From Halorubellus sp. JP-L1 (GTDB taxonomy: Archaea > Halobacteriota > Halobacteria > Halobacteriales > Natrialbaceae), in assembly GCF_011440375.1 (NCBI RefSeq), contig NZ_JAAOIR010000003.1:186001-250000 (forward strand): a DNA stretch of 64,000 nucleotides. Reading direction: 5' to 3'. The position numbers and the translations under genes are program-made. This document shows, in pieces, positions 23,934-61,348 of the stretch; the first letter of the stretch is position 1; every line of letters starts with the position of its first letter. A model generated the notes under the pieces. The model saw only the letters and a list, made by a program, of their open reading frames with translations, made no database searches and was not told the DNA's origin.

Positions 23934-24024
23934 TCGCTCTTCGACGCGCAGCCCGCGGCCGCGGTTCGGTTTCTTCGATCGGTCGCCGTCGAAGCGCGTG
24001 CTTCGCGGCGTGTCGAGGCAGTGG

Positions 24025-25152
24025 TCAGTCGGCGAGGAACTCGATGGCGGCGCCCTGGCCGTAGCCGACGCACTCGGTCGCGAGCCCGCGGTCGACGCCG
24101 CGGCGGTTCATCTCGTGCAGTAGCGTCACCGGGAGTCGTGCGCCCGACGCGCCTAGCGGGTGGCCGATGGCGATGGCGCCGCCGTTGACGTTGAAGCGGT
24201 CGTCGTCGACGCCGAGTTCGCGCTGGCAGTACAGCGTCTGGCTCGCGAACGCCTCGTTCAACTCGACGAGCCCGTAGTCGTCGACGCTGGTGCCAGCCCG
24301 GTCCACGAGGCCACGGACGGCCGGGACGGGCCCGATGCCCATGATCTCGGGGTCGACGCCGACGACCTCGTGCGCGCCGACAGCGCCGAGGACGTCGAGA
24401 CCGTGGTCGTCGGCGAACGCGCGGCTCGTCACCATCACGGCGGCCGCACCGTCGCTGATCTGCGAGGCGTTCCCCGGCGTCACCGTCCCGTCCTCGGCGA
24501 ACACGGTCGGGAGCTCCGCGAGTTTCTCGGCGGTCGTCCCCGGACGCAGTCCCTCGTCTTCCGTGACGGTCTCCTCGCCCGTATCGATGGGAACGATCTC
24601 GTCCTCGAACCGGCCCTCCCTGGTCGCGTCGACGGCTCGCTGCTGGCTGCGCGCCGCGTACTCGTCCTGGGCCTCGCGCGAGACGTCGAAGCGTTCGGCG
24701 ACGGCCTCGGCGGTGTTCCCCATGCGGAACGACTCGACGTCGTACCGCTCGACGAGCGCGGGGATCTCGCTCACGTCGTTCGCGCGCTCGACGCGCGTCA
24801 TGCTCTCCACGCCACCGGCGATCACGCACTCGCGCTGGCCGGCGCGAACGGCGTCGGCGGCACTCATGATCGCTTGCGCCGAGGACGCGCACTGCCGGTC
24901 GATGGTCGACGCCGGAACCGTCTCGCCGAGGTCGCTCGTCAGCGCGACGATGCGCGCGAGGTTGTTCCCCTGCTCGCCTTCCTGCTTCACGCACCCCCAG
25001 AGGAGGTCGTCGACGTGCTCGCCCGTGAGGCCCGTCTCGGCGAGCATCGCGTCGACGAGCTGCCTCGAGAGCTCCTCGCTCCGGACGTCCGCGTACACGC
25101 CGCCCTCTTTGCCCTGCGGGGTCCGAACCGCTTGCACGACTACTGGTTCCAT
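24025..25152 (-). CDS. Thiolase (acetyl-CoA acyltransferase)
   Basis: A 375-residue thiolase. Nucleophile Cys88 lies in TIDRQCASSAQAIMSAA, the histidine loop is NVNGGAIAIGHPLGASGAR, and the C-terminal cysteine lies in LATECVGYGQGAAIEF, where most thiolases have CIGGGQG. It would cleave a 3-oxoacyl-CoA, probably the last step of ring-opened aromatic acids or fatty acids. A TATA-like GTTTACG lies about 27 bases before ATG 25152. It is divergent from the acyl-CoA dehydrogenase and convergent with the hydroxylase gene. Confidence 0.92.
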   Translation of the reverse strand: MEPVVVQAVRTPQGKEGGVYADVRSEELSRQLVDAMLAETGLTGEHVDDLLWGCVKQEGEQGNNLARIVALTSDLGETVPASTIDRQCASSAQAIMSAADAVRAGQRECVIAGGVESMTRVERANDVSEIPALVERYDVESFRMGNTAEAVAERFDVSREAQDEYAARSQQRAVDATREGRFEDEIVPIDTGEETVTEDEGLRPGTTAEKLAELPTVFAEDGTVTPGNASQISDGAAAVMVTSRAFADDHGLDVLGAVGAHEVVGVDPEIMGIGPVPAVRGLVDRAGTSVDDYGLVELNEAFASQTLYCQRELGVDDDRFNVNGGAIAIGHPLGASGARLPVTLLHEMNRRGVDRGLATECVGYGQGAAIEFLAD

Positions 25153-25302
25153 AACTCACGTCAGGTGCGTCATGGACGTAAACGCCGGGGGTCGCGGCGG
25201 GGGATGCGGTCGATGGCTCGACACCGTCGCGGTCGACGCCGCTACCCGCTCGGGCGCAGTCGCGGGAGCAATCGTTAAGTCCGCAGTATCCGACGTTCGA
25301 CT

Positions 25303-26439
25303 GTGATAACCGAATTCGAGCTGACGGCCGAACACCAGGCCCAGCGCGAGGCCGTGCGCGAGTTCGTCGAGTCGACGGTCGAACCGGTCGTCGACGAGCA
25401 CGAGACGGCGGGCGAGTTCCCGGAAGCGCTCGTCCGGCAACTCGGCGACGAGGGGTATAGCGGCGTGCCGTACCCCGAGGAGTACGGCGGCGCCGGCCTC
25501 GACTACCGTTCGTTCGCGATCACGAACGAGGAGCTCTCGCGGGGCTGGAAGCTGCTGGCGGGCGCGGTGAACGTCATCGCGTCGCTCGTCGGTTACCCGA
25601 TCTACACGGAGGGCGACGAGTGGCAGCGCGAGCAGTGGCTCCAGAAGGCCTGCACGGGCGAGTGGATCGTCTCGCTCGGGATGACCGAACCGGACGCGGG
25701 GAGCGACGCCGCCTCCATCTCGACGACCGCCGAACGCGACGGCGACGACCTCCTCATCAATGGGCACAAGGTCTGGATGACGAACGGGCACGTCGCGGAC
25801 TTCATGCTCCTCGTCACGAAGACCGAGGACGGCCTGACGCTCGTCGGCGTTCCCGAGCCCCGCGAGCGCGACGGCGTCGAGTACGTCAGGAACATCCCGT
25901 GCATGGAGGGCGACGCCGCCATCGAGAGCGAGGTGAAGTTCCACGACGTCAGGGTCCCCGCGGAGAACGTCGTCGGAACTTCGGGCAAGGGACTACGGTA
26001 CGTCCTCGAGGGCCTGGACATCGGCCGCATCGGGACGGCGGCGCAGGGCGTCGGCGTCGCGCAGGCGTCGCTCGACGCGAGCAAGGAGTTCGCGGACGAA
26101 CGCGAGCAGTTCGGGCAACCCATCCGCGAGTTCCAGGGCGTCGGGTTCAAGCTCGCGGACATGGCGATGGACGTCGAGGCGTCCCGGCTCCTCACGCTGT
26201 CGGCGGCCGACCAACGCGACCGCGGCGAACGCGTCACGCAGGAGGCGGCGATGGCGAAGGCGTACGCGACCGACGCCGCGATGGAGATCGCGACCGAGGC
26301 CGTCCAGATCCACGGCTCCCGTGGGTACTCGACGGACTACCCCGTCGAGCGACACATGCGGGTCGCGAAGGGGATGCAGATCTACGAGGGCACGAACGAG
26401 ATCAACCGCCTCGTCGTCAGCCAGCGCCTTTACGAGTGA
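25303..26439 (+). CDS. Acyl-CoA dehydrogenase
   Basis: A 378-residue FAD enzyme introducing an alpha-beta double bond into an acyl-CoA. Motifs: MTEPDAGSDAASI for FAD binding, INGHKVWMTNG, QFGQPIREFQGVGFKLADM, IHGSRGYSTDYPVERHMR, and the catalytic Glu362 in QIYEGTNEINR. It starts at GTG 25303, with a TTAAGT box about 25 bases upstream. It may serve the aromatic route or dearomatised ring acyl-CoA oxidation. Confidence 0.92.
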   Translation: MITEFELTAEHQAQREAVREFVESTVEPVVDEHETAGEFPEALVRQLGDEGYSGVPYPEEYGGAGLDYRSFAITNEELSRGWKLLAGAVNVIASLVGYPIYTEGDEWQREQWLQKACTGEWIVSLGMTEPDAGSDAASISTTAERDGDDLLINGHKVWMTNGHVADFMLLVTKTEDGLTLVGVPEPRERDGVEYVRNIPCMEGDAAIESEVKFHDVRVPAENVVGTSGKGLRYVLEGLDIGRIGTAAQGVGVAQASLDASKEFADEREQFGQPIREFQGVGFKLADMAMDVEASRLLTLSAADQRDRGERVTQEAAMAKAYATDAAMEIATEAVQIHGSRGYSTDYPVERHMRVAKGMQIYEGTNEINRLVVSQRLYE

Positions 26440-27983: not shown

Positions 27984-28973
27984 TTAGACGCCGCCTTCGC
28001 CGTCGAGCACGTCCTTGATGCCTTCCTCGATGCGGGGCGGATTCGGGAGGTAGAAGTCCTCCATCGCGAGCATCGGCATCGGGACGTCGAACCCCGTGAT
28101 GCGGCCGACGGGCGCCTCGAGGTGCATGAGCGCGCCCTCGTTGATCGTCGCGACGAGCTCCGCCGCGAACCCGCCCGTCTTCGCGGCCTCGTGGACGATC
28201 GCGGCGCGCCCGGTCTTGCGGACGGACTCGAGGACGGTCTCCCTGTCGAGCGGCGAGATCGAGCGGAGGTCGATCACCTCGATGGAGACGTCGCGCTCCT
28301 CCTCGAGGGTCTCGGCGGCCGCGAGCGTGTCCGGCATCGTCGCGCCCCACGAGATCACCGTAATGTCCTCGCCCTCGGTGCGGACCGCGGCCTCGCCGAT
28401 CGGGACGGTGTGTTCGCCCTCCGGCACCTCGTCGCGGAACGACCGATAGAGGCGCTTCGGTTCGAGGACGAGTACCGGATCGGGGTCCCTGATCGCGCTC
28501 AGGAGGAGTCCCTTCGTGTCCGCGGGCGTACTGGGGACGACGACCTGGAGCCCGGGAATGTGTGCGTACGCGGCCTCCAGGCTCTCGGAGTGGTGTTCGA
28601 GCGCGCGAACGCCGCCGCCGTAGGGCGCTCGGATCACCATCGGCGCGGTCAGCTCGCCGCGCGTCCGCCAGCGGATCCGGCTCGCCATCGACACGAGCTG
28701 GTTGAACGCCGGCGGGATGAACCCCGAGAACTGGATCTCGGCGACCGGCCGGTACCCACGCATCGCCAGCCCGACCGCGGACCCGGCGATCGCGATCTCC
28801 GTGATCGGCGTGTCCAGCACGCGCTCGCCGCCGTACTCGTCCTTGAGGCCCTCGGTCGCGCGGAAGACGCCGCCCTGCTGGGCGACGTCCTCGCCGTACA
28901 CCACGACGTGGTCGTCGTCGGCCATCGCGACGCGCAGCGCGTCGTTGACGGCCTCGACGAGAGTTGCGTTCAT
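27984..28973 (-). CDS. 2-oxoacid dehydrogenase E1 component, beta subunit
   Basis: A 329-residue transketolase-like protein: YGEDVAQQGGVFRATEGLKD, LDTPITEIAIAGSAVGLAMR, GYRPVAEIQFSGFIPPAFNQ, and SESLEAAYAHIPGLQVVVPS, ending in a typical C-terminal domain with VIDLRSISPLDRETVL. With the alpha subunit it decarboxylates branched-chain or aromatic 2-oxoacids using thiamine diphosphate. Start at ATG 28973, seven bases after the alpha subunit. E2 and E3 genes are not in the window. Confidence 0.92.
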   Translation of the reverse strand: MNATLVEAVNDALRVAMADDDHVVVYGEDVAQQGGVFRATEGLKDEYGGERVLDTPITEIAIAGSAVGLAMRGYRPVAEIQFSGFIPPAFNQLVSMASRIRWRTRGELTAPMVIRAPYGGGVRALEHHSESLEAAYAHIPGLQVVVPSTPADTKGLLLSAIRDPDPVLVLEPKRLYRSFRDEVPEGEHTVPIGEAAVRTEGEDITVISWGATMPDTLAAAETLEEERDVSIEVIDLRSISPLDRETVLESVRKTGRAAIVHEAAKTGGFAAELVATINEGALMHLEAPVGRITGFDVPMPMLAMEDFYLPNPPRIEEGIKDVLDGEGGV

Positions 28974-28980
28974 GACGCGA

Positions 28981-30156
28981 TCACCCCTTGGGCCGGTGCT
29001 CGATGTAGTCGTAGGCGTCCGGTCGCGCCTCCAGGAACGACTCGAAGTCCTTGAGCTGGCGCTCGAGCTCCGGCGGCAGGTCGTCGTAGAGGTACTCGAA
29101 CATCTCCGAGACGTCCCGCTTCTCGAAGGCGTCCGCCGCCGCCTTCGCCTCGTCGAACTGCTCGTTCGCTTCCTCGCGGATCGCGGCCGGGTCGATGTCG
29201 TCCCAGACGCCGCGCTGCTGGAGGAACGACTCGAACCGACCAACGGGCTCTCGGTCCTCCCACCAGTCGACTTCCGCCTGGTCCCGGTAGCGCGACGGGT
29301 CGTCGTTCGTCGTGTGCGCGTCCAGGCGGTACGTGACGGCCTCTACGATGGTCGGGTTCCCGTCGGCGACGTGCTCGCGCGCCGTCTTCACGGCGTCGTA
29401 GACCGCGAGGACGTCGTTCCCGTCGACGCGGATGCCGTCGATCCCCCACGCGATCCCCTTCTGGGCGACCGACTTCGCGCGCGTCTGTTGCTCGAACGAC
29501 GCCGAGATCGAGTAGCCGTTGTTCGGACAGAACAGGAGCGCGGGCGCGTCGACGACGCTCCCGAAGTTCACGCCAGCCTGGTACTCACCCGTGCTCGGGT
29601 GGCCGTCGCCGTGGTAGAGCGCGGCGATCGCGTCGTCGTCGTCGAGCCGCATCCCCCACGCGAACCCGACGCCGACCGGGATGTGCGTCCCGATCGCGAT
29701 CGCGGGCGGGAACGTGTTGTTCGCCGCCTGCTTGTTGGCGTCCTCGACGCCGCGCCAGTAGAGCAGGAGGTCCCGCAGCGGCATCCCCTGGATGAGTTCC
29801 GCTGCGCCCTCGCGGCCGTACGGGAACAGCCAGTCGTCGTCCTCGAGCGCGAACGCGCATCCGACGACGCTCGCCTCCTGGCCGCGCACGGACGCGTACG
29901 TCCCCATCTCGCCGCGACGCTGGAGCTTCACCATCCGGTCGTCGACGACTTGCTGGAGCACCATCCAGCGATAGAGGTCGATCAGCTCCTCGTCGCCGAT
30001 GGCGGGTACCTGGCTCTCGTCGTAGCTCCCGTCCGCGTCGACGATCTGGTACCGTGGCGGCGTCCGCTCGGGTTCGCTGATCGTGCACTCGGCGAGCGAC
30101 TCGCTCGCTGCGCCGAGGTACGCCGGCCCTTCATCGAGTTGACTCACGTTCGTCAC
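28981..30156 (-). CDS. 2-oxoacid dehydrogenase E1 component, alpha subunit
   Basis: A 391-residue protein with the thiamine-diphosphate motif beginning GDGHPSTGEYQAGVNFGSV and ending FCPNNGYSIS, plus RGEMGTYASVRGQEASVVG and the phosphorylation-loop-like YRLDAHTTNDDPSRYR. It forms the E1 heterotetramer with the following beta subunit and would feed acyl-CoA production. Two GTG codons (30156 and 30147) are possible starts; the first is chosen. Divergent from the MaoC-like gene. The E1 pair is more like branched-chain 2-oxoacid dehydrogenase than pyruvate dehydrogenase. Confidence 0.9.
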   Translation of the reverse strand: MTNVSQLDEGPAYLGAASESLAECTISEPERTPPRYQIVDADGSYDESQVPAIGDEELIDLYRWMVLQQVVDDRMVKLQRRGEMGTYASVRGQEASVVGCAFALEDDDWLFPYGREGAAELIQGMPLRDLLLYWRGVEDANKQAANNTFPPAIAIGTHIPVGVGFAWGMRLDDDDAIAALYHGDGHPSTGEYQAGVNFGSVVDAPALLFCPNNGYSISASFEQQTRAKSVAQKGIAWGIDGIRVDGNDVLAVYDAVKTAREHVADGNPTIVEAVTYRLDAHTTNDDPSRYRDQAEVDWWEDREPVGRFESFLQQRGVWDDIDPAAIREEANEQFDEAKAAADAFEKRDVSEMFEYLYDDLPPELERQLKDFESFLEARPDAYDYIEHRPKG

Positions 30157-30916: not shown

Positions 30917-32395
30917 ATGTCATCAAGTACCGATGGCAGTGAGTTAGTCCGCGAACTGAACTGGGTGCACAGTGCCGCCGTCATCGTCGGCACGATGCTG
31001 GGGGCGGGCATCTTCGTCGTGACCGCCCAGGCGGCAGGCATCATGGGGCCTGCCGTCCCGATCGGGTTCCTCCTGGGAATCCCCATCATCGTCACCACGG
31101 CGCTGGTATACTCCGTGTACATGTCGAGTCCGCTCGGCGAACACCCGGGCGGGGCCTACGTCCACATCTCGCGGACGTGGGATTCGCTGTACGCAGGATA
31201 CATCTTCATGTGGCTGAAGTGGGTGTCGTTCATCGGCGCGCTCGCCGTCCTCTCCATCGGATTCGGCGAAGCGATGCACTACTTCGACGCCTTCACGTTC
31301 CTGTCGGTCACGAACTGGGCGATATTCTGGGTGACCGTCTTCTTCCTACTGAACCTGTCCGGCGTCGACCTGTTCGGCAACGTCCAGGCGATACTCACCG
31401 TGATACTGGTGGTCATCCTCCTCGCGCTCGCGCTTCCCGGGCTACTGTTCGTCGACCCGGCGAACTTCAGTCCGCTATTCCCGCAGGAACTGTACGGCGA
31501 CGGATTCGTCCAGCCCGTCCTCCAGGGGACGGCCGCGTTGATGTTCTCCTACATCGGCTTCGAGGCGCTCGCCCAGACCGCCGGCGAGACGGAGAACCCC
31601 CGGGAGACGCTCCCGAAGGTGTTCGGGTACTCCACCGTGTTCGTCGGCGTCCTGTACATGCTCGTCGCGATCGTCGTCCTCGGGGCCATGCCGTGGTCCG
31701 AAGTCGCCGAATCGAGCACGCCCCTGACGGCCGCGGCGTCGACGTACTTCCCGCTCGGGACCGCGGCCATCGTCTCCTTCGGGAGCATGCTCGCGTACGC
31801 GACGAGCCTCAACTCGACGTTCATGGTGCCGAGCCGCATCCTGTACAGCTTCGGCGAGGACCGCATCGTCCCGGAGTTCCTCACGCACGTCAACGACCGA
31901 TTCCACACGCCCGACGTCGGACTCGCCATCACGTGGCTGCTCGCCGTGTTCGTGCTCCTCACGTCGACGTTCAACTTCGCGCTCCTCATCGCGCTCGCCG
32001 CGCTCTTCATGATGTACACCGCGCACTCGCTGTCCGCGCTCGCGATGCCGTTCGTCAACCCCGACCTCTACGAGCAGTGCGACCTCCAGTTCAAGCCGGC
32101 GATCCTCAGCGCGATCGCCATCGTGAGCGCGGTCACGATGGGCATCTTCGCCTGGCAGACGCTCTCGCTGAACTCGCTGGGACCCGCCGTCTCGACGGTG
32201 CTGAACGGTGACGTCGTCGGCGGTCTCACCTCCAGTCCCGCGCTCCTCATCATCGTCTGGGGGGTCGTCGGGTCGATCATCTTCTTCGGGTACCGGGCGT
32301 ACCTCCGCTCGGAGGGCGTCGACACCAGCGAGATGAAGGAGCTCCACGAGCACGACCACGAGGAGATCGAGTCGAAGCTCGGGACCGAGGACTGA
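30917..32395 (+). CDS. APC-family amino acid permease
   Basis: A 492-residue membrane protein with 12 predicted helices. The first helix has VIVGTMLGAGIFVVTAQAAG, helix 6 has LMFSYIGFEALAQTAGETEN followed by PRETLPKVFGYS, all as in amino acid/polyamine/organocation carriers. The C-terminal tail is acidic with histidines (KELHEHDHEEIESK). Substrate unknown. A TAAGTAATA box about 25 bases before ATG 30917 suggests a leaderless transcript. The threonine-synthase-like gene follows after 33 bases, so amino acid import and conversion may be coupled. Confidence 0.87.
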   Translation: MSSSTDGSELVRELNWVHSAAVIVGTMLGAGIFVVTAQAAGIMGPAVPIGFLLGIPIIVTTALVYSVYMSSPLGEHPGGAYVHISRTWDSLYAGYIFMWLKWVSFIGALAVLSIGFGEAMHYFDAFTFLSVTNWAIFWVTVFFLLNLSGVDLFGNVQAILTVILVVILLALALPGLLFVDPANFSPLFPQELYGDGFVQPVLQGTAALMFSYIGFEALAQTAGETENPRETLPKVFGYSTVFVGVLYMLVAIVVLGAMPWSEVAESSTPLTAAASTYFPLGTAAIVSFGSMLAYATSLNSTFMVPSRILYSFGEDRIVPEFLTHVNDRFHTPDVGLAITWLLAVFVLLTSTFNFALLIALAALFMMYTAHSLSALAMPFVNPDLYEQCDLQFKPAILSAIAIVSAVTMGIFAWQTLSLNSLGPAVSTVLNGDVVGGLTSSPALLIIVWGVVGSIIFFGYRAYLRSEGVDTSEMKELHEHDHEEIESKLGTED

Positions 32396-32428: not shown

Positions 32429-33640
32429 ATGCGCCTCCGCTGTTCGGACTGCGCCGCCGAGTACGCGCCCACGACGTCGTTCCAGTGCCGAGAGTGCGGC
32501 GGAATTCTGGCGGCGACGTACGACGGACCGCTCGACGCCGACCGCATCGCCGACGGCGAGACGCTGTTCGAGAAGTACGGGAATCGCTTGCCCTCCCGCG
32601 GGACCGCCGCTGGCGACGAGGGAGCGACGCCGCTCCTCCGGGCCGACGCGCTCGCCGACGTACTCGGCGTCGAGGCGACGGTATACCTCAAGGACGAGCG
32701 CCGGAACCCGACGGGGAGCTTCAAGGACCGCGCGCTCGCACCGGCGATATCGCTCGCGAGCGAGTCCGGGGCGGAGGGCGTCGTCACGGCGTCGACGGGA
32801 AACGCCGCCGCGGCGTGCGCCCGGTACGCCGCTCGCGCGGGCCTCGACTGCTACGTGCTCGTCGAGGAAACGGCGCCGGCGAAGAAGCTGCTCGAACCCC
32901 GCGCCTACGGGGCGAACGTGGTGCGCGTCGAGGACCTGTTCGCCGGTGGCGAAGCCGCGCTCGCCGACCTGCTCCGCGACGTCGCCGACGGGCTTGACGC
33001 GTACCTCGCGTTCGCGTACCAGCCGTTCAACGCCGTGCTCGCCGAGGGCGTCAAGACCGTCTCGTACGAGGTCGCCGAGAACCTCGCGTTCGACGTCCCG
33101 GACGTCGTCGTCACCGCCACGGGCGGCGGCGACAACCTCGCCGCGCAGTACCGCGGTTACCGCGAACTACGGGCGGCCGGATTGACGTCCCGCGTCCCCC
33201 GGATGGTGGGCGCGCAGGCGGCGGGTGCGGCACCGCTGGCGACGGCCGTCGACGCGGACGCGGACTCGCCCGTCGACGTCGAGGAACCCGCCACGGTCGC
33301 CTCGGGCATCGCCGCGCCGTTCGCCGGACAGCACGGGCTGGACGCGATCCGCGACAGCGACGGCACGGCAATCGGGGTCGGCGACGACGCGCTCGTGGAC
33401 GCCGTCACAACGACGTCCGAGACGACGGGCGTCTGGCCGGAGCCGGCGAGCGCGACGGTCGTCCCCGCGCTCGAACGGCTCGCCGACCGCGGCGCTGTGT
33501 CGGCGGACGACGTCGTCGTCCTCACGATCACGGGGAGCGGACACAAGCACACAGAGCCGGTGGAAGCGCGGCTGGAGGACGTCCCAACGGCCGCTCGCGA
33601 CGCCGCGGCAGTCGCCGGCGCGTTCGCGGCAGAGCGCTGA
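32429..33640 (+). CDS. Threonine synthase-like PLP enzyme with zinc ribbon
   Basis: A 403-residue fold-type II PLP enzyme. An N-terminal zinc ribbon (CSDC and CREC) precedes the catalytic domain; the PLP lysine is in NPTGSFKDRAL, and the phosphate loop is TASTGNAAAACARYA. The GGGDNLAAQYRG loop is also as in threonine synthase. The family includes threonine synthases and paralogues with other beta-elimination or replacement activities. Next to an amino acid permease rather than homoserine genes, a catabolic or alternate role is possible. Confidence 0.85.
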   Translation: MRLRCSDCAAEYAPTTSFQCRECGGILAATYDGPLDADRIADGETLFEKYGNRLPSRGTAAGDEGATPLLRADALADVLGVEATVYLKDERRNPTGSFKDRALAPAISLASESGAEGVVTASTGNAAAACARYAARAGLDCYVLVEETAPAKKLLEPRAYGANVVRVEDLFAGGEAALADLLRDVADGLDAYLAFAYQPFNAVLAEGVKTVSYEVAENLAFDVPDVVVTATGGGDNLAAQYRGYRELRAAGLTSRVPRMVGAQAAGAAPLATAVDADADSPVDVEEPATVASGIAAPFAGQHGLDAIRDSDGTAIGVGDDALVDAVTTTSETTGVWPEPASATVVPALERLADRGAVSADDVVVLTITGSGHKHTEPVEARLEDVPTAARDAAAVAGAFAAER

Positions 33641-33719: not shown

Positions 33720-34883
33720 TCAGCGCTGCGCGAGGAACGACTCGATGCGGTCGAACCCCGCCGCGAGCGTCTCCTGGTCCGTCGCGTAACTGAGCCGCAG
33801 GTAGCCCTCGCCGGCGTCGCCGAAGGCGGTGCCCGGCGTGACCGAGACGCCCTCCTCCTCTAACAGCCGGAGGGCGACGTCCATCGAACTCCCCTCCAGC
33901 GACGAGACGTTGCAGAACAGGTAGAACGCGCCCTCCGGCGCGACCGGGTCGATCGCGGGCAACTCGGCCGTCCGGTCGAGCGCGTACGCGCGGCGGTCCC
34001 GGTACGCGTCCACCATCTCCTCGAAGGGTTCCTGCGGTCCGGTGAGCGCGGCCAGTCCGGCGTGCTGGGCGACGCTCGACGAGCACAGCGAGAGCCGCTG
34101 CCTGATCACGTGCGCCGCGTCGACGACGTCCTCCGGGCCGGCGAGCCACCCGAGGCGCCAACCGGTCATCGCGTATCCCTTCGAGAACGAGTTCACGGAG
34201 AGCACCCACTCGGGGTCGCCGAGCGCGGCCGCGCTCGTGCGCGTCCCCTCGTAGGTCAGTCGCTCGTACACCTCGTCGGCGACGAGGTACGCCTCGTGGT
34301 CCGCGGCGGCCTCGGCGACCGCGCGGACGCTCTCCTCGTCGTAGACGCGTCCGGTGGGGTTCGTCGGGCGACAGAGAACGACCGCGGCGGTGTCGTCCGA
34401 GATGCGTTCGATCACGGCGTCCGCGTCGAGGTCGAACCCGTCCTCGGGCGAGAGCGGGACGCGAACGGGTTCGCCGCCGGCCAGCTCGACCTGGGCGGCG
34501 TAGTTCGTCCACTCGGGAGTTGGAAGAACGACCTCCGATCCCGGGTCGACGACCGAGAGCAGGGCGAGCGCGAGCGCCTCGATGCCGCCGTTCGTCACGA
34601 TGACGCCGTCGGCGTCGACGGGGACGCCGTTGTCGGTGCGGGCCTTCTCGGCGATGGCGGCGCGCAGCTCCGTCATCCCGTACGTCGACGTGTAGTGGGT
34701 CGCACCGCCCTTCGCGGCCTCCGCGGCCGCCTCGACGACGTGGACGGGCGTGTCGAAGTGCGGTTCGCCGATTTCGAGGCGCACGACGTCGTCGATCGCC
34801 TGCGCGCGTTCGAACATCACTCGTATCTCGGACCCGGTCTCCTGCGAGGCCCGAGAAGAGAGCCGCGACTCGGTGTCGGTCAT
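33720..34883 (-). CDS. Class I aminotransferase
   Basis: A 387-residue fold-type I PLP enzyme. It has VIVTNGGIEALALALL, CRPTNPTGRVYDEESV, VADEVYERLTYEG, the lysine in SVNSFSKGYAMTGWRLGW, and the C-terminal arginine in GYLRLSYATDQE. It resembles archaeal aspartate/aromatic aminotransferases. The amino donor and acceptor cannot be read. Divergent from the aldolase-like gene by 87 bases, so the two may be co-regulated. Confidence 0.9.
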   Translation of the reverse strand: MTDTESRLSSRASQETGSEIRVMFERAQAIDDVVRLEIGEPHFDTPVHVVEAAAEAAKGGATHYTSTYGMTELRAAIAEKARTDNGVPVDADGVIVTNGGIEALALALLSVVDPGSEVVLPTPEWTNYAAQVELAGGEPVRVPLSPEDGFDLDADAVIERISDDTAAVVLCRPTNPTGRVYDEESVRAVAEAAADHEAYLVADEVYERLTYEGTRTSAAALGDPEWVLSVNSFSKGYAMTGWRLGWLAGPEDVVDAAHVIRQRLSLCSSSVAQHAGLAALTGPQEPFEEMVDAYRDRRAYALDRTAELPAIDPVAPEGAFYLFCNVSSLEGSSMDVALRLLEEEGVSVTPGTAFGDAGEGYLRLSYATDQETLAAGFDRIESFLAQR

Positions 34884-34970: not shown

Positions 34971-35966
34971 ATGAGTCTCCGTCTCACGGTAGAAGACGTA
35001 TCCGGCGTGTTCGCAATCGTGCCGACTCCAGCGACGCCCGACGCGAACGACCCCGACGCGACGGACACCGTCGACGTCGACGAGACCCGCCGGGCGATCC
35101 GAGCGCTCGAGGACGCGGGCGTCGACGCGGTGATGCTGAACGGAACGTCCGGCGAGGCGTTCGCGCTCACGCCCGACGAGTGGCGGACGTTCACCGAGAC
35201 GGCGGCCGACGCCGCCGACGAAATGCACGTCCTCGCCGGCCCGACGACGCTCAACACGCGAACGACGATCGAGCGCGCCGAGTTCGCCCGCGACGTCGGC
35301 TGTTCGGGCCTCCTCCTGGGCCGTCCGATGTGGAACGAACTGTCGCCCGACGCGACCGTCAACTTCTACGAGGAGGTCGCCGACGCCGTCCCCGAACTCG
35401 GCATAGTCGCCTACGACAACCCGGGCGCGTTCAAGCGCAAGATCACCTCCTGGGACCGCCTCGCGGAGATCGAGAACTTCGTCGGCACGAAGGCCGTCGG
35501 CCTCGGCCCGGCGTACTGGGAGACCATCCGCCAGATTCGCGCGGCCGACGGCGACATGCGCGTCCTCCAGATGGACGCGTACCTCCCCGCGGCGCGCTCC
35601 TGGCACAGCGACCTCCCCCTCGTCTGCTGGTCCTCGAGCGCGTCCTGCGGGCCCTCGCCCGTGCTGGCGATGATGGACGCACTCGAGGCCGGGGCGTACG
35701 AGCGAGCGTTCGACCTCTCCGAGCGGATGGCGTGGTCGTTCGAGACGTTCTTCCCGAACGGCGACATGGCCGCGTTCGGCCGCCACACGCCCGCCATCGT
35801 GAAGGCACGGATGCGCGAAGCCGGGTTCCTGGACCCCGGTCCGGTCCGGCCGCCGAACCCGATGACGCCCGAGTCGTACCTGGACGGCGGTCGGGAGTCG
35901 GGGCGTCGCTGGAAGGAGGTCGTCGCAGCGGTTGAAGAGACGGACGACGCTGCCGCGACTCGATAG
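34971..35966 (+). CDS. DapA-superfamily hydratase-aldolase, NahE-like
   Basis: A 331-residue class I aldolase of the dihydrodipicolinate synthase superfamily. The Schiff-base lysine is Lys174 in NFVGTKAVGLG and the catalytic tyrosine is Tyr148 in IVAYDNPGAFK. The combination GRPMWNELSP, VADAVPELGIVAYDNPGAFK, CWSSSASCGPSP, FFPNGDMAAF and GPVRPPNPMTPESYL matches the pattern I know from trans-o-hydroxybenzylidenepyruvate hydratase-aldolases, which release pyruvate and an aromatic aldehyde. It is longer than DapA itself by a C-terminal extension typical of that group. A TATA-like GACTTACCG lies about 29 bases before ATG 34971. The aldehyde dehydrogenase gene is next, converging. Confidence 0.75.
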   Translation: MSLRLTVEDVSGVFAIVPTPATPDANDPDATDTVDVDETRRAIRALEDAGVDAVMLNGTSGEAFALTPDEWRTFTETAADAADEMHVLAGPTTLNTRTTIERAEFARDVGCSGLLLGRPMWNELSPDATVNFYEEVADAVPELGIVAYDNPGAFKRKITSWDRLAEIENFVGTKAVGLGPAYWETIRQIRAADGDMRVLQMDAYLPAARSWHSDLPLVCWSSSASCGPSPVLAMMDALEAGAYERAFDLSERMAWSFETFFPNGDMAAFGRHTPAIVKARMREAGFLDPGPVRPPNPMTPESYLDGGRESGRRWKEVVAAVEETDDAAATR

Positions 35967-35995
35967 CGCCGGTCCGCTACTGCCCGTCGAACGCG

Positions 35996-37483
35996 TCAGT
36001 AGTCGCCCGCGAACGGGTCCCTGACGTCGCCGGCGAGGTCGAACCAGACGCTCTTCGTCTGATAGTACTCCTCGAGTCCTTCGGGGCCGGCCTCCCGGCC
36101 GATGCCGCTGTCCTTGAATCCGCCGAAGGGGACGTTCGGGGCGACGAGACGGTACTGGTTTACCCATACCGTCCCGGCGTCGATGGCGTCGACCATCCGG
36201 TGGGCTTGCCGCATGTCCTCGGTCCAGACGCCCGCCGCGAGCCCGAAGTCCACGTCGTTGGCGAGCCGCGTCGCGTCCGCCTCGTCCTCGAAGGGGATGA
36301 CGGCGGCGACGGGGCCGAAGATCTCCTCCTGTGCGACCCGCATGTCGCTCTCCACGTCGGTCAGTATCGTCGGTTCGATGAAGCACTCGCCCGGTGCGCC
36401 CTCGGGCATCCCGCCGCCGTAGGCGAGCGTCGCGCCCGATTCGACGCCGAGGTCGACGTACTCCTCCACCGTCTCCCACTGCTCCCGGAACGCCATCGGC
36501 CCGACGTCCGTCTCCGGGTCCATCGGGTCGCCCACCTCGACGCCCTGGAGGCGCTCGACGAGCTCCGCGACGAACTCGTCGTGGACGCGCTCGTGGACGA
36601 GCACGCGGGACCCCGCCATACACACCTGTCCCGTCGACGCGAAGATGCCCTTCATCACGCCGTTGATGGCGTTCTCGAGGTCGGCGCTCGGGAAGACGAC
36701 GTTCGGGCTCTTCCCGCCGAGTTCGACGGAGACCGCGGAGAGATTCCGCCCGGCCTCGGCCGCGATCTCGCGGCCGGTGGCGGTGCTGCCGGTGAACGCC
36801 ACCTTGTCGACGTCGTCGTGCCCGACGAGCGCGCTCCCCGCCTCGGTCCCGTAACCCGGAACGACATCGTAGATTCCGTCCGGGAGCGAGGTCTCCTCGG
36901 CGACCAATTCCGCGAAGCGCAGCGCGCTCACCGGCGTCTGCTCGCTGGGTTTGTGGACGAACGCGTTCCCGGCCGCGAGCGCGGGCGCCAGCTTCCAGAC
37001 GGAGAGCAAGAGCGGTGCGTTCCAGGGCGTAACTGCGCCGACGACGCCGTACGGCTCCCGCTTGGTGTAGCAGAACATCTCCTCCTTCGTGCCGTCGACG
37101 GGATTGATGCGGCCGCTCCCGGCCTGCTCGCAGAGCCGCCCGAAATACCGGAGGTACTCGACGACGTGGCCGAGTTGCCCCTTCGTCTCTGCGAAGATGC
37201 GCCCGTTCTGCCTGGTCTCGAGCTCGGCGAGCTCCTCGACGTTGTCCGCGACCGCGTCGGCTATCTCGTTCAGGAGAGTGCGGCGTCGACTCTGCGTGAA
37301 CTCGCCCCACGCCTCGCTCTCGAAGGCGTTCCTGGCCGCTCGGACCGCACGGTCGACGTCCGTCGCCGTGCCTCGGGGGACGTGCGCCCAGACCTCGCCG
37401 TCGTACGGGTCGGTGACCGAGATGGTGTCGTCGCCGTCGGACGCCTGGAACTCGCCGTCGATGTGGAGATCGTACTCCCTCAT
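35996..37483 (-). CDS. Aldehyde dehydrogenase (NAD(P)-dependent)
   Basis: A 495-residue ALDH. Nucleophile Cys288 is in FASTGQVCMAGSR, the general base Glu254 is in VELGGKSPN, and the cofactor site is FTGSTATGREIA. PWNAPLLLSVWKLAPALAAG and QEEIFGPVAAVIPF are also standard. Adjacent to the NahE-like aldolase, the natural reading is oxidation of the aromatic aldehyde to its acid (salicylaldehyde-dehydrogenase-like), but ALDH substrates cannot be read from sequence. TATA-like GGTTTAATC lies about 30 bases before ATG 37483. Confidence 0.92.
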   Translation of the reverse strand: MREYDLHIDGEFQASDGDDTISVTDPYDGEVWAHVPRGTATDVDRAVRAARNAFESEAWGEFTQSRRRTLLNEIADAVADNVEELAELETRQNGRIFAETKGQLGHVVEYLRYFGRLCEQAGSGRINPVDGTKEEMFCYTKREPYGVVGAVTPWNAPLLLSVWKLAPALAAGNAFVHKPSEQTPVSALRFAELVAEETSLPDGIYDVVPGYGTEAGSALVGHDDVDKVAFTGSTATGREIAAEAGRNLSAVSVELGGKSPNVVFPSADLENAINGVMKGIFASTGQVCMAGSRVLVHERVHDEFVAELVERLQGVEVGDPMDPETDVGPMAFREQWETVEEYVDLGVESGATLAYGGGMPEGAPGECFIEPTILTDVESDMRVAQEEIFGPVAAVIPFEDEADATRLANDVDFGLAAGVWTEDMRQAHRMVDAIDAGTVWVNQYRLVAPNVPFGGFKDSGIGREAGPEGLEEYYQTKSVWFDLAGDVRDPFAGDY

Positions 37484-37595: not shown

Positions 37596-38744
37596 ATGGC
37601 CGTGTCAGTAAGCGACTGGCGAGACGAGATTCCGGCGATCAGCGAGTACGACCGCATCCACCTCAACAACTGTTCGGCGTCCCCGCTCCCGGAACGCGGC
37701 CGCGAGGCCCGCCGGGAGTGCGAGCGCGTCTGGATGGAGGAACCGAACCCGTGGGAGACCTGGCTCGCGAAGGTGAACGAGTCGAAGGAGCGCTTCGCGT
37801 CGCTCATCAACGCCGACCCCTCCCAGATCGCGGTCCTCTCCTGCGCGACGCAGGCGCTCGCACAGGTCGCGAGCGCCCTCGACTACGACGACCGCGACGA
37901 GGTGGTCGTCAGCGACCTGGAGTTCCCGACCGTCCCGCAGTTCTGGTACGCGCAGGAGCGAAAGCGTGGAGCTCGCCTCCGCGTCGCCGAGTCCGAGGAC
38001 GGCCTCCGAGTCTCAGCCGACGCGTACGCGGACGCCATGTCAGACCGGACGAGCCTCGTCTGCACCGCGCACGCCTACTCGTTCACGGGCGGACTAATGG
38101 ACCCGAAGGCGGTCGCCGACGAGGTCCACGACCGCGGCGGGTACCTCTTCCTCGACGCGTACCAGTCGATCGGCGTCGTTCCCATCGACGTCGAGGAACA
38201 GGACATCGACATGCTGACCGCGGGAACCCTGAAGTTCCTCATGGGCGGCCCGGGAATCGCGTTCCTCTACGTCGACGACGACGTCGCGGCCGAACTCGAA
38301 CCCGCGAACATGGGCTGGTTCAGCGTCGACGACATCTTCGGGTTCGAGACCGAAGAGCCCGAGTACGCGCCCGGCGCCCGGCGCTTCGAGATGGGGACGC
38401 CGCCGGCCCCGAACGCCTACCAGGCCAGCGCAGGCATGAGCATCATCCAGGAGGTCGGCACGGAGACGATCCGCGAGCGCGTCCTCGAACGCACCGCCCA
38501 GCTCATCGAGGGCGCCATCGACCGGGGCTTCTCGGTCCGCACCCCGCTCAAGGACGCCCACCGCGGCGGCGTCGTCAACGTCCAGGTCCAGTCGCCCGAG
38601 ACCGCCGCGCAGCGGCTGATGGACGACGGCATCTGCATCAGCACGCGCGCCGGCGGCGTCCGCTTCTCCCCGCACTTCTACACGACCGAGGCCGACGTCG
38701 ACACCGCCCTCGACGCGCTCGCCGAGCACGCGACGCCACCCTGA
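37596..38744 (+). CDS. Class V aminotransferase-like PLP enzyme
   Basis: A 382-residue fold-type I PLP protein. It begins with the class V pattern IHLNNCSASPLPERGREA, the PLP aspartate lies in YLFLDAYQSIGVVPID and the lysine in MLTAGTLKFLMGGPG. The C-terminal RFSPHFYTTEADVDTAL binds substrate carboxylate. It resembles selenocysteine lyase/cysteine desulfurase-like and kynureninase-like proteins, but no catalytic cysteine loop is evident, so desulfurase activity is unlikely. ATG 37596 is chosen because a TAACTTGAT box lies about 28 bases upstream. Confidence 0.85.
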   Translation: MAVSVSDWRDEIPAISEYDRIHLNNCSASPLPERGREARRECERVWMEEPNPWETWLAKVNESKERFASLINADPSQIAVLSCATQALAQVASALDYDDRDEVVVSDLEFPTVPQFWYAQERKRGARLRVAESEDGLRVSADAYADAMSDRTSLVCTAHAYSFTGGLMDPKAVADEVHDRGGYLFLDAYQSIGVVPIDVEEQDIDMLTAGTLKFLMGGPGIAFLYVDDDVAAELEPANMGWFSVDDIFGFETEEPEYAPGARRFEMGTPPAPNAYQASAGMSIIQEVGTETIRERVLERTAQLIEGAIDRGFSVRTPLKDAHRGGVVNVQVQSPETAAQRLMDDGICISTRAGGVRFSPHFYTTEADVDTALDALAEHATPP

Positions 38745-38952
38745 CTACCCACGCATCAGGTCGACAGACCCGGTGAATCCACCGGCGACGTCTAAGTCGT
38801 AGTCGACCATAGCGTACTGAACGCGTCGGAGGCCAACTGATCGAGATTCACCACCAGCGAAACGTCGGATATGAGACCGGCATCGGCTTCGTAGGAGGAA
38901 CTGGTGTCGACAGTCGAAAATGGTTTGCCCCCTCGTCGTGCAGACGTACTGG

Positions 38953-39423
38953 ATGCTAGAGACGAACCAACCGGCCCCGGAGTTCGCACTCCCGAACCAC
39001 GACGGCGAGACGGTACGGCTATCGGACTTCGACGGCGAACGCGTCGTCCTATACTTCTACCCGAAGGCGGGAACGAGCGGCTGTACCATCGAGGCGAACG
39101 ACTTCAGTGACTCCTGGGAAGCGTTTCGGGAGCGCGACGTTCAGGTCCTCGGCGTCTCGACCGACTCCGTCGACGACATCGCAGCGTTCAGAGACGACCA
39201 AGAGATACCGTTCCCCTTGCTGAGCGACGAAGACGGATCGGTGGCACGACGCTACGAGACGTTCGGAACACCGGACGTCGACGGTGAAACAGTCGAAATA
39301 GCGTTCCGGAATACTTACGTAATCGATCCCGACGGCGAGATCGAAGCCGTCTACGAAGGCGTCTCTCCAGAAGGCCACGCAAAGGAGCTCCTGGACGACA
39401 TAGACGAACTTCGAGACGAGTGA
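38953..39423 (+). CDS. Peroxiredoxin (BCP/PrxQ type, 1-Cys)
   Basis: A 156-residue thiol peroxidase. Peroxidatic Cys44 lies in YPKAGTSGCTIEAND. The resolving cysteine usually five residues later is replaced, so it is a 1-Cys form reliant on an external thiol such as thioredoxin. PEFALPNHDGETVRLSDF opens the protein. ATG 38953 matches family starts; an in-frame ATG at 38920 would add an atypical extension. It reduces peroxides in the cytoplasm. No copy of the sulfur-regulon element is seen upstream. Confidence 0.9.
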   Translation: MLETNQPAPEFALPNHDGETVRLSDFDGERVVLYFYPKAGTSGCTIEANDFSDSWEAFRERDVQVLGVSTDSVDDIAAFRDDQEIPFPLLSDEDGSVARRYETFGTPDVDGETVEIAFRNTYVIDPDGEIEAVYEGVSPEGHAKELLDDIDELRDE

Positions 39424-39496: not shown

Positions 39497-40060
39497 ATGA
39501 CTGGACCAGACGAACTCGACGTCCCGGACTTTGAAGCGTTCCTCCCGCAGGAAGCGTACAAGATCCGGGCCAGAGACGTAGACGGTATCGACCTCTACGA
39601 GGACGCGGAGGACGTCGACGACGTCGGAGAGGCCGACGAGTCGCCACCGGACTTCACGTCGCACGTCTTCCGGTCGAACGACTTCAACATCTCCTACATG
39701 GAGAGCGAACCGGGTGGCACGATAGACTGGCACACTCACACCCCCCACATGTACCAGATCAACGTGCCGATCGCCGGTCGCGTCGAGATATCGTACGAAG
39801 ACGAAGACGGCGAGATTCACACCGTCGAAGCAGGACCCGAGGAGATGGTCTATCTGCCGCCGGGCGCGAAGAACAAGGTGACGGCCATCGGTGACGAGCA
39901 ACTCAGACTGTACGTCGTCTACCGACAGATCGTCGTCCCCCAGATCGAGGAGATGGTCGGAATCGCGGACCAGCACGCGCGCACCAACCCCGGACTCGAG
40001 ATAGATACCCTCAGAGGCATCATTCATTCAATCCAGGACCACGCCGTCGACGAGTTCTAG
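39497..40060 (+). CDS. Cupin-domain protein
   Basis: A 187-residue single-domain cupin with the metal motif GGTIDWHTHTPHMYQINVPI (two or three histidines and a glutamine instead of the usual glutamate) and a second motif around MVYLPPGAKNKV. It may be an aromatic-ring dioxygenase relative or a sugar- or regulator-type cupin; the second motif lacks the usual histidine, so dioxygenase activity is uncertain. A CTAATTATATTATT promoter block lies about 30 bases before ATG 39497. Confidence 0.75.
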   Translation: MTGPDELDVPDFEAFLPQEAYKIRARDVDGIDLYEDAEDVDDVGEADESPPDFTSHVFRSNDFNISYMESEPGGTIDWHTHTPHMYQINVPIAGRVEISYEDEDGEIHTVEAGPEEMVYLPPGAKNKVTAIGDEQLRLYVVYRQIVVPQIEEMVGIADQHARTNPGLEIDTLRGIIHSIQDHAVDEF

Positions 40061-40146: not shown

Positions 40147-40947
40147 TCAGGCGTCGTCGGTCCACCGGAGCAGTCGGCCGCGGAGCAGCCGGAACAGGCG
40201 GTCGGAGACGAGTCCGATGACGGCGACGGTGATGACGGCGGCGATGGTGGTCGCGGTCTGGAAGAACCGGACGGACTCGGTGAGCATCTGTCCGAGGCCG
40301 CCGCCGGCCGTGACCATCTCCGCGACGACGACGACGACGAACGAGAGGAACAGCGCGATCTGGACGCCGTTGAAGATAGAGGGGAGTGCGGCGGGGAGGA
40401 CGACCTCTCTGGCCACGCCGACCCGGGAGACGCCCATAGAGCGCGCCGACCAGACGAGCTCTCGCTTGATGCCGCGCGCACCGTCGTACGTCGCGATGAC
40501 GATCGGGAACACCGCCGAGGTCACCGCGAGCGCGACAGCCGGGACGTTCCCGAACCCGAACCAGAGGACGTAGACGGGGACGAGCGTCACCTTCGGGATG
40601 GGAAAGCCCAGCGAGATGATCGGGTCGAAGAACCACCCGACGACCGTCGACTGTGCCATCGCGAGCCCGAGCGCGACGCCGATCACGATCGCGATCAGGA
40701 ACGCGAGGAACGCGCGGCCCGCCGTGAGCGCGGCGAGTTCCAGCAGCGACCCGGTGCTGACGAGGTCGACGAGCGTCTCGGCGACGACGTACGTGTGCGG
40801 GAGCGACTGCGAGGGGACGAGTTCGAACGTCGCGATGACTTCCCAGACGACGACGAGACCCACGATCGGTTTCAGGTAGTCGATCGTCGACCCGACGGAA
40901 TCGCCGATGGACTCGCCGACGGTGGCCGTGCCCTGCGAGCCGCTCAT
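40147..40947 (-). CDS. ABC importer permease (SsuC/TauC/ThiX type), second
   Basis: A 266-residue permease with six predicted helices and the EAA-type loop ARSMGVSRVGVAREVVLPAA, which contacts the ATPase. Its ATG overlaps the stop of the upstream permease (ATGA), so the two are coupled and may form a heterodimer. With the divergent ATPase and the binding protein downstream it makes an importer for nitrate/sulfonate/thiamine-precursor-like compounds. Confidence 0.88.
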   Translation of the reverse strand: MSGSQGTATVGESIGDSVGSTIDYLKPIVGLVVVWEVIATFELVPSQSLPHTYVVAETLVDLVSTGSLLELAALTAGRAFLAFLIAIVIGVALGLAMAQSTVVGWFFDPIISLGFPIPKVTLVPVYVLWFGFGNVPAVALAVTSAVFPIVIATYDGARGIKRELVWSARSMGVSRVGVAREVVLPAALPSIFNGVQIALFLSFVVVVVAEMVTAGGGLGQMLTESVRFFQTATTIAAVITVAVIGLVSDRLFRLLRGRLLRWTDDA

Positions 40948-41765: not shown

Positions 41766-41898
41766 TATTCGTCGATTCGCTCGTGAGTCTTGGTCCCGTA
41801 CGTCATTCCCGTTGAGGGAGACAAACCGACACTGCGGTATAAATCTTTTCTGCCGAGAGTAACGCTTTTACGCGAGACTGCCATCGGTGAGCGCATAG

Positions 41899-45569: not shown

Positions 45570-46724
45570 TCAGTCGAAGTCGAACAGTTCGGCCGCGGTC
45601 TGCATGTCCTTGTCCCCGCGACCGGAGAGGTTGACGAGGATGGTGTCGTGCTCGCCGTCCTCGGCGAGCTGGAGTGCGCGCGCGACGCCGTGACTGGACT
45701 CGAGCGCCGGGATGATGCCCTCGGTCTCGCTGAGCTCTCGGAACGCGGCCAGCGCTTCCTCGTCGGTGACGCCGGTGTACTCGCAGCGGCCGACGGCGCG
45801 GAACATCGCGTGCTCTGGGCCGACGCCGGGGTAGTCGAGGCCGGCGGAGACCGAGTGCACGTCGACGTCGTCGTCGATGACGCGCGTCTTCATGCCGTGG
45901 ATGACGTCGTCCTTGCCCTCGGCGAGCGGGGCGGCGTGGCGCTTCGACCCCCCGCCCTCGCCGCCGCCCTCGGCGCCGTAGAAGTCGACGTCGTCGTCCC
46001 GGAACGCGTGGAACAGCCCGATGGCGTTCGAGCCGCCGCCGACGCACGCGACCGCTGCGTCCGGGAGCCCGCCGGTTCGTTCGCGGAACTGCTCGCGGGC
46101 TTCGGTGCCGATGACGCTCTGGAAGTCCCGCACCATCCGCGGGAACGGGTCGGGGCCGACGACGCTCCCGACGAGGTAGTGGGTGTCCTCGACGTTCCCC
46201 GCGAAGTCCTCCAGGGCGGCGTCGACGGCGTCCCCGAGGCCCTGGCCGCCGCGCGTGACCTCGTTGACTTCGGCGCCCATGAGGCGCATGCGGAAGACGT
46301 TCATCTTCTGGCGCTCGACGTCCTTCTTCCCCATGTAGATCTCGGTGTCGAGGTCGAACAGCGCGCCGACCATTGCGGTGGCAGTCCCGTGCTGGCCGGC
46401 GCCGGTCTCGGCGATCAGGCGCTTCTTCCCGGCTTTCTTCGCGAGTAGCGCCTGTCCGAGGCAGTTGTTGATCTTGTGTGCGCCCCCGTGGAGGAGGTCC
46501 TCTCGCTTGAGGTATATCTCGGCGTCGTACGGGTCGCTCAGGTTCGCGGCGTGATACACCGGTGTCGGTCGTCCGGCGTACTCCTCGAGGTGGCGTCGGA
46601 AGTCCGCCTGGAACGCCTCCGACTGGCCGATGTCGTCGTACGCGGCGGCGAGCTGTTCGAGCGGTTCCTCGAGCGGTTCCGGGACGTGCCGACCGCCGTA
46701 TCCCTCGAAATCACCTTGTGACAT
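45570..46724 (-). CDS. trpB: Tryptophan synthase beta chain
   Basis: A 384-residue PLP enzyme joining indole and serine. The PLP lysine is in LLHGGAHKINNCLGQALLAK, with AETGAGQHGTATAM and the phosphate loop VGGGSNAIGLF; it belongs to the TrpB1 type, which normally pairs with TrpA. Here it stands alone, with no trpA, trpC or trpD nearby. The start is set at ATG 46724 since an upstream TTG extension would cross the leaderless spacing from the TTTTATTTGG box (46761-46752). Confidence 0.93.
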   Translation of the reverse strand: MSQGDFEGYGGRHVPEPLEEPLEQLAAAYDDIGQSEAFQADFRRHLEEYAGRPTPVYHAANLSDPYDAEIYLKREDLLHGGAHKINNCLGQALLAKKAGKKRLIAETGAGQHGTATAMVGALFDLDTEIYMGKKDVERQKMNVFRMRLMGAEVNEVTRGGQGLGDAVDAALEDFAGNVEDTHYLVGSVVGPDPFPRMVRDFQSVIGTEAREQFRERTGGLPDAAVACVGGGSNAIGLFHAFRDDDVDFYGAEGGGEGGGSKRHAAPLAEGKDDVIHGMKTRVIDDDVDVHSVSAGLDYPGVGPEHAMFRAVGRCEYTGVTDEEALAAFRELSETEGIIPALESSHGVARALQLAEDGEHDTILVNLSGRGDKDMQTAAELFDFD

Positions 46725-47129
46725 GTGCACATTGGACAACTACGGTCGGCCAAATAAAACTACGTCCCGGAATCGGCGTCGAAGACGCCGCTACCGGCCG
46801 TTCTGGAACAGTCCCGCCCATCATAGTTCGGATCGAGTAACTATCGTTCGGATTTGGGCTTCGTTGCGGAATCACGAACGACGGTGTGGGTTTCGCACGA
46901 CAGCTGTTGCGTTTCGCGCGACAGATTTGCGTTCCACGCGAGGGCTTGCGTTCCGTGCGACAGCATTGCGTTCCGTGCGACGCCTTTGCGTTTCGCGCGC
47001 CAGCGCGGTTTCGGCGGGACGACGCCCCCGCTCGCTCACCCGTTCGACCGGTGGTTTCTTGCTGGTCGTTCGCATACCGAACACCATGCCATTCGGTCGC
47101 AGACTCCGGTGCGCCGGGAGGGGGGCGCG
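46725..47129. other. Intergenic region with trpB promoter and a 20-base repeat array
   Basis: The left part holds the TATA box of trpB (46752-46761). The right part (46887-47005) is a tandem repeat described separately. No gene is recognised; the open frame crossing the repeats only reflects the repeat sequence. Confidence 0.6.
46887..47005. repeat. About six tandem copies of a 20-base unit
   Basis: Units of the form TTGCGTTTCGCGCGACAGAT begin at about 46887, 46907, 46927, 46946, 46966 and 46986, so the period is 20 with one 19. Copies differ at several positions (CGCACGACAG, CGCGCGACAG, CCACGCGAGG, CCGTGCGACA). It lies between trpB and the amidohydrolase. Spacing near two helical turns could suit a regulator array, or it is a minisatellite. 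Confidence 0.75.
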
Positions 47130-48770: not shown

Positions 48771-48933
48771 CCGTCGTCGGCGAGTAGTCGCTGCCCTTCG
48801 TTCGTCGTCGCACAGCTGTTCGTTGCGGTCATTCCCATTGGAGACGGAACCGGCCGCTGGACCGGTCTCGTCCGCGTTTCCCGGGATGCCGAGGGGCAAA
48901 CTTAGAAGTAGGACGTTTGCGATGTGTCACTAC

Positions 48934-51036: not shown

Positions 51037-51040
51037 AGAG

Positions 51041-52993: not shown

Positions 52994-53274
52994 GGCAGAT
53001 GGACCTCCACCTGGCAGTCGACGACGGCCGCGTCGTCTGCCGCTCGTGCGGCGAAGACGTCTGTGCAGCGGACGAGAACTACAAGCTGCACGCGCTCTGC
53101 GACCGGAAGCCGCTCACGGAAGCCGGCCCCCTCATCAACGACCCGTCTGAGTACGTCGACGACGAGATGGAGTTCCGCCAGTTCTACTGCCCCGGCTGCG
53201 GGACCTTGCTGGAGAACGAAGTGATCGAGGCCGACCACGAACCCGTCCACGACAAACAGCTCTACGAGAGCTGA
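52990..53274 (+). CDS. Zinc-ribbon small subunit, acetone carboxylase gamma-like
   Basis: A 94-residue protein with CRSCGEDVC, a further cysteine in HALCDRK, and CPGCGTLL near residue 68, forming one or two zinc sites. The tail ENEVIEADHEPVHDKQLYES is typical of acetone/acetophenone carboxylase small subunits, which accompany HyuA- and HyuB-like chains. The four-base ATGA overlap with HyuB indicates a stoichiometric complex. It is shorter than the known gamma subunits. Confidence 0.75.
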   Translation: MRQMDLHLAVDDGRVVCRSCGEDVCAADENYKLHALCDRKPLTEAGPLINDPSEYVDDEMEFRQFYCPGCGTLLENEVIEADHEPVHDKQLYES

Positions 53275-57606: not shown

Positions 57607-57744
57607 GATGTTCCCATGCCCTGCCAGCGTTAATAGTATTTTGTTCACACGTACCACGACCGTCATCGATGCACCCGGGCGTGATCCAGATCCACCGCTC
57701 GACAGGACTCCATAGAGGAGCGAACGCGAGAAAGCCGTCGGCGA

Positions 57745-61317: not shown

Positions 61318-61348
61318 CTGAGAATCGGACCGGAACGATACCGGGAGC

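Follow-up and report, generated by a model that had tools for sequence, protein, structure and literature searches.

The window, a 64,000-nucleotide stretch of the Halorubellus sp. JP-L1 genome, belongs to a 369-kb contig; the genome totals 3.76 Mb and is 99.8% complete. Its 67% G+C content and acidic proteins are of haloarchaeal composition, and its relatives were likewise haloarchaeal. An aldolase gene and an aldehyde dehydrogenase (ALDH) gene converge tail to tail within it, 29 bp apart, and therefore do not form one operon. A class I aminotransferase gene diverges from the aldolase gene with 87 bp between them and is not in one operon with it either, which counts against the explanation preferred below. 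The features of the window are collected in Table 1.

Table 1. Genes and gene groups of the window, in order of position.
Feature	Position	Strand	Basis
Anthranilate-type module: enoyl-CoA hydratase-like, IclR, SDR, RidA, LLM, 2-aminobenzoyl-CoA monooxygenase/reductase type, thiolase, acyl-CoA dehydrogenase	17517..26439	.	profiles
Two-domain flavoenzyme, 2-aminobenzoyl-CoA monooxygenase/reductase type	21768..23933	+	FAD_binding_3 + Oxidored_FMN
2-oxoacid dehydrogenase E1 beta-like	27984..28973	-	start inferred from sequence; named by position adjoining E1 alpha; syntenic in both relatives
2-oxoacid dehydrogenase E1 alpha	28981..30156	-	profile search; syntenic in both relatives
APC-type amino acid permease-like membrane protein	30917..32395	+	assigned by eye; syntenic in G029
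PALP / threonine synthase-like PLP enzyme	32429..33640	+	profile search; syntenic in G029
Class I aminotransferase (aspartate/aromatic type)	33720..34883	-	profile and PDB matches, synteny
NahE/PhdJ-family class I aldolase (hydratase-aldolase fold), GTSGE subtype	34971..35966	+	PF00701, PDB sequence search, phylogeny, predicted model
Aldehyde dehydrogenase	35996..37483	-	PF00171
Class V aminotransferase-fold enzyme, weak KYNU_C	37596..38744	+	profile search
Peroxiredoxin (BCP)-like	38920..39423	+	assigned by eye; syntenic in G029 and QS_4_66_20
Cupin protein	39497..40060	+	synteny; close orthologs only with this NahE clade
Tryptophan synthase beta	45573..46739	-	TIGR00263, 535 bits, cut-off 392
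Hydantoinase A, B and acetone-carboxylase-gamma-like genes	48823..53274	+	profiles; adjoin 2-aminobenzoyl-CoA-type module in G112
Benzoate-CoA-ligase-family AMP ligase	55942..57666	-	TIGR02262, 378 bits, cut-off 375

Identity and distribution of the aldolase

The aldolase gene encodes 331 residues with a PF00701 (DHDPS) domain in profile searches, and its start codon position is common to its two closest relatives. In a phmmer comparison with PDB sequences, PhdJ (6dan) was the top match (E = 4.5e-70) and NahE (9frt and 6dao) followed at approximately 1e-58, whereas the best DapA reached 2e-14. The TIGR00674 model for DapA (4-hydroxy-tetrahydrodipicolinate synthase) gave 71 bits, below its curated cut-off of 206. 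An AlphaFold model based on 27 aligned relatives had a mean pLDDT of 93.7, and its top 13 Foldseek matches were all PhdJ or NahE (TM 0.91-0.93), compared to approximately 0.76 for the next matches, NAL and DapA. The TIGR00674 score and both rankings rule out a DapA or sugar-acid aldolase identity. The protein is a NahE/PhdJ-family hydratase-aldolase, as the sequence-only reading had proposed. The motifs quoted in that reading proved to be group-specific, with G[RV]PMW present in 42 of 43 family members and Y.N..AFK in 39 of 43, and both missing from the two readable DapA-superfamily outsiders. No second NahE-like gene was found in the genome, where two further matches were both distant.

Over its whole length the protein resembles PhdJ of the phenanthrene pathway (PDB 6dan/6daq; TM 0.93, 39% identity), with which it shares GRPMW, YDNPGAFK, and the Schiff-base lysine and tyrosine. 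It also resembles NahE of the naphthalene pathway (PDB 6dao/8do5/9frt; TM 0.91-0.92, 36% identity), including the catalytic residues. Lys174, Tyr148, Trp121, Asn150, and Trp220 were invariant in the alignment of all 43 relatives. The GXXGE motif, the Schiff-base lysine, and the catalytic tyrosine are named as family features in PMC10150532. Unlike PhdJ and NahE, the window aldolase carries GTSGE (residues 58-62; GTFGE in PhdJ), which fits the GXXGE pattern, together with other clade-specific substitutions. Ser60 at the third position was limited to the window clade, the other 40 relatives having Phe (30) or Leu (10), a regularity of these relatives rather than a published criterion. S60, F64, A65, L205, and P274 were clade-specific at otherwise conserved positions, and H272-T273-P274 was also altered, H272 and T273 being common to a few other relatives. 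S60, F64, A65, L205, and H272-P274 may line the pocket.

NahE-like genes were rare in haloarchaea: a search within the family found them in 5 of 125 genomes, and one across the class in 5 of 391. An alignment-based scan of genome contigs also returned matches; a single-protein scan gave none. The window aldolase forms a three-member clade (support 100/100) with those of genome G029 (73% identity) and the MAG QS_4_66_20 (G408; 76%), a clade resting on three genomes of which one is an 88%-complete MAG. A separate haloarchaeal group (support 92/87) comprised Halopenitus malekzadehii, Natrinema gelatinilyticum, and Halostagnicola sp. A56. The AU test did not reject a common origin for the haloarchaeal NahE-like genes as a whole (p = 0.217), nor was one shown. 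That the NahE family occurs in haloarchaea is already known, nahE having been reported in Halopenitus malekzadehii and Halobellus rufus, and other nahE roles were suspected in some non-degraders (PMC10150532). A dioxygenase-free NahE subclade with its partner genes was not found in the literature searched. It was noted that the NahE-like match of another haloarchaeon (G040:C91:57038-58054) has one TGA within the matched stretch.

Dioxygenases and syntenic neighbours

The sequence-only reading had found no ring-hydroxylating dioxygenase (RHD) in the window, and this observation extends to the whole genome, in which a PF00848 (RHD alpha) profile search gave no match while control genomes including Haloferax volcanii were positive. 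G029 and QS_4_66_20, which carry the closest relatives of the window aldolase, also gave no match. In contrast, one or two matches were found in each of the four remaining haloarchaea whose genomes hold a NahE-like gene, there of the GTFGE type (Fisher exact test over seven genomes that are not phylogenetically independent; p = 0.029). An RHD lay within approximately 10 kb of the NahE-like gene in three of these four. The Halopenitus and Natrinema genes (46-51% identity) have an ALDH gene nearby, convergent in Halopenitus; unlike the window aldolase, they keep GTFGE and lie within approximately 5-10 kb of RHD alpha and beta genes and near VOC dioxygenase and SDR genes. Known plasmid pathway copies of the aldolase gene keep similar company to these loci. 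On pDTG1, NahE adjoins nahC and the genes for naphthalene dioxygenase and the isomerase; the window aldolase has none of these nearby. No NahC-, NahD- (HCCA isomerase), or LigB-like gene was found in the window or at the loci of its two clade relatives; VOC-family proteins are encoded elsewhere in the window's genome, which might also hold oxygenases of a distant or unusual kind.

Two further observations concern NahE-like genes outside the window clade. In Halopenitus malekzadehii, Natrinema gelatinilyticum, and G040, the RHD, VOC dioxygenase, and NahE-like genes together form candidate archaeal aromatic dioxygenase pathways. The NahE-like genes of Sphaerochaeta, Coprothermobacter, and Paradesulfitobacterium (L040, L058, L029; approximately 8.7-12.4 kb) have a transporter-like gene downstream, confirmed as BenE family in L040, and no dioxygenase nearby, and perhaps serve another non-PAH role.

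The neighbours common to the window, G029, and QS_4_66_20 were the aminotransferase, cupin, peroxiredoxin-like, E1 alpha and beta, class V enzyme, and hydantoinase-type genes and ABC transporters, to which the window and G029 add the ALDH, PALP enzyme, and permease. In QS_4_66_20 the aminotransferase gene stands immediately before the aldolase gene in the same orientation; in G029 an M20 peptidase-family gene separates the two. Of 381 haloarchaea, just 2 had close orthologs of the aminotransferase and cupin, and both carry the window NahE clade (QS_4_66_20 apparently lying outside this sample), with the class V enzyme being more widespread. The ALDH that was said to adjoin the aldolase does so, and an ALDH 68% identical to it converges with NahE in G029 too. 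No ALDH was found near the aldolase gene in QS_4_66_20, a point against the preferred explanation.

The aminotransferase had aspartate and aromatic aminotransferases as its best PDB matches. The azomycin route (RohP/RohR/RohQ) employs an arginine oxidase and an aldolase. An azomycin-type analogy, suggested by a match of the aminotransferase to GntC in NCBIfam, was dropped, ordinary aspartate/aromatic aminotransferases being closer and 8fft reaching only E = 6e-25, and the literature searches made found no support for it. The class V enzyme was rejected as a kynureninase at approximately 31% identity to the true kynureninase of the genome; its homologues elsewhere accompany FAD-oxidoreductase and RidA-like genes.

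Anthranilate-type module and kynurenine genes

The sequence-only reading had suggested that a ligase at 55.9 kb and a CoA hydroxylase at 21.8 kb could continue a route from salicylate. The hydroxylase is a 721-residue flavoenzyme with FAD_binding_3 fused to Oxidored_FMN, which we take to be the layout of 2-aminobenzoyl-CoA monooxygenase/reductase. Its nearest NCBIfam model, NF006101 (salicylyl-CoA 5-hydroxylase/oxidoreductase), gave 801 bits against a cut-off of 1078. Searches found the flavoenzyme at full length in both other genomes of the clade, so that with the window's own copy all three have it. It was also present in G112, the genome of another haloarchaeon, and at full length in none of four RHD-type haloarchaea. 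The surrounding module is collinear in G112 (76-85% identity), which conserves the run together with hydantoinase A, B, and gamma genes at 76-88%, and G112 was not among the genomes with a match in the family-level search for NahE-like genes. The link between the aldolase and the module is a loose one, because the module occurs without NahE in G112 and lies approximately 270 kb from NahE in G029.

A cluster in G029 (L151:259-12225) holds a CoA ligase 67% identical to that of the window, a TrpB 84% identical to the window's, a canonical kynureninase, IDO, LLM, and a 2-aminobenzoyl-CoA monooxygenase/reductase-type enzyme. On contig C2 of the window's own genome (approximately 432.8-436.6 kb; L149:6806-10586), an IDO-family protein and a canonical kynureninase that scores above its profile cut-off flank an alpha/beta hydrolase. 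This locus is a haloarchaeal gene set for the conversion of tryptophan to anthranilate. TDO was not found in the genome, in which IDO, kynureninase, and an aromatic CoA ligase make up a kynurenine/anthranilate degradation set. It was also noted that TrpE, TrpF, and TrpD genes adjoin a 2-aminobenzoyl-CoA-type flavoenzyme, LLM, and class V enzyme in QS_4_66_20 (L130:7560-15651).

The ligase and the "CoA hydroxylase" most likely handle anthranilate rather than salicylate, because the flavoenzyme clusters in relatives with CoA ligase, TrpB, IDO, kynureninase, or Trp genes. The continuation from salicylate gives way to a 2-aminobenzoyl-CoA type of module, mostly present in G112. In Arthrobacter Rue61a, anthranilate degradation has been described as a scheme that combines an anthranilate-CoA ligase with 2-aminobenzoyl-CoA monooxygenase/reductase (PMC3534580). 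Like that route, the window has genes for the two-domain flavoenzyme, CoA ligase, RidA, thiolase, and acyl-CoA dehydrogenase; unlike it, the set is found in an archaeon and its link to an aldolase is putative.

Possible substrates of the aldolase

We give about an even chance to the explanation that this aldolase of a distinct haloarchaeal subclade acts on a 2-oxo acid derived by transamination, giving pyruvate and an aldehyde, rather than on a PAH ring-cleavage product. Cleavage of an amino-acid-derived compound is probable because the genome contains no ring-attacking dioxygenases and the gene travels with an aminotransferase. By homology, Lys174 would form a Schiff base with the C2 carbonyl of a 4-aryl-2-oxobut-3-enoate or a 4-hydroxy-4-substituted-2-oxobutanoate. 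Together with Tyr148 it would then carry out retro-aldol cleavage to pyruvate and the aldehyde, a chemistry that is proposed on top of the observed fold, lineage, and residues. The substrate is most likely a 2-oxo acid that the linked aminotransferase forms from an amino acid, as gene linkage and the lack of dioxygenases suggest, and the convergent ALDH could oxidise the released aldehyde. As a speculative candidate, 2-aminobenzaldehyde would yield anthranilate for the module in the window.

The sequence-only reading had placed the aldolase in a lower PAH or naphthalene-type route, in which o-hydroxybenzylidenepyruvate is converted to salicylaldehyde, then by the ALDH to salicylate, and further to salicylyl-CoA. 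Family membership and fold agree with such a route, as does the convergent NahE-ALDH pair also seen near RHD genes in Halopenitus. However, the three clade genomes lack a PF00848 oxygenase, their NahE loci lack NahC-, NahD-, and LigB-like genes, the Phe or Leu of GTxGE is replaced by Ser, the partners are aminotransferase, cupin, and E1 genes, and the ALDH is no more than 31% identical to NahF. A PAH-pathway role is not supported, and we regard this route as very unlikely; it would survive through a non-Rieske upper pathway or the uptake of ring-cleavage products from neighbours. Nor did any finding favour the cinnamate-type alternative raised in that reading. A small-molecule aldolase is also rather unlikely, acting on a 4-hydroxy-2-oxo acid whose source is a non-aromatic amino acid (such as 4-hydroxy-2-oxoglutarate from 4-hydroxyglutamate), with the ALDH acting either on its product or at another step. 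NAL/DapA-type enzymes presumably have a hydroxyl residue at the site matching the Ser of GTSGE, and the aminotransferase's PDB matches and the nearby permease-like gene also agree with it, but Trp121, Trp220, and other aryl-specific family residues are kept and hydroxyproline genes were not identified.

In a further alternative, reduction and transamination of a kynurenine-type amino acid would give 4-(2-aminophenyl)-4-hydroxy-2-oxobutanoate, to be split by the aldolase into pyruvate and 2-aminobenzaldehyde, with the ALDH delivering anthranilate to the CoA ligase and the 2-aminobenzoyl-CoA monooxygenase/reductase. Its intermediate would be the 2-amino analogue of that in NahE crystals (8do5 entry title), and the anthranilate-type module in the same window, the IDO, kynureninase, and TrpB of the genome, and the linked aminotransferase are consistent with it. 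We nonetheless hold it improbable, as the kynureninase already yields anthranilate directly, an enzyme for the keto reduction was not identified, and the modules are separable in G112 and G029. A dioxygenase-free NahE branch in haloarchaeal tryptophan/kynurenine-type catabolism might split an aminotransferase-made 4-(2-aminophenyl)-2-oxo acid into pyruvate and 2-aminobenzaldehyde, anthranilate entering the 2-aminobenzoyl-CoA route by an undescribed path; we consider this a long shot.

It has been proposed to recognise PAH degraders by their hydratase-aldolase genes, used as biomarkers (PMC10150532). The window clade is a clear case in which such a marker would flag as a degrader a genome that has no ring-hydroxylating dioxygenase at all, and it offers a simple discriminator in the GTSGE motif and the aminotransferase and cupin partners. 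In archaea the clade points to a putative aldolase function, and in haloarchaea to a gene set leading from kynurenine to 2-aminobenzoyl-CoA.

It was also noted that NitT/TauT-like and branched-chain-type ABC transporter genes (window 40147-43957 and 57745-62833) flank the catabolic genes, several being syntenic in relatives. Prephenate dehydratase-like genes (L115:8681-9544 and L020:2801-3613; 49% identical) lie near both islands.
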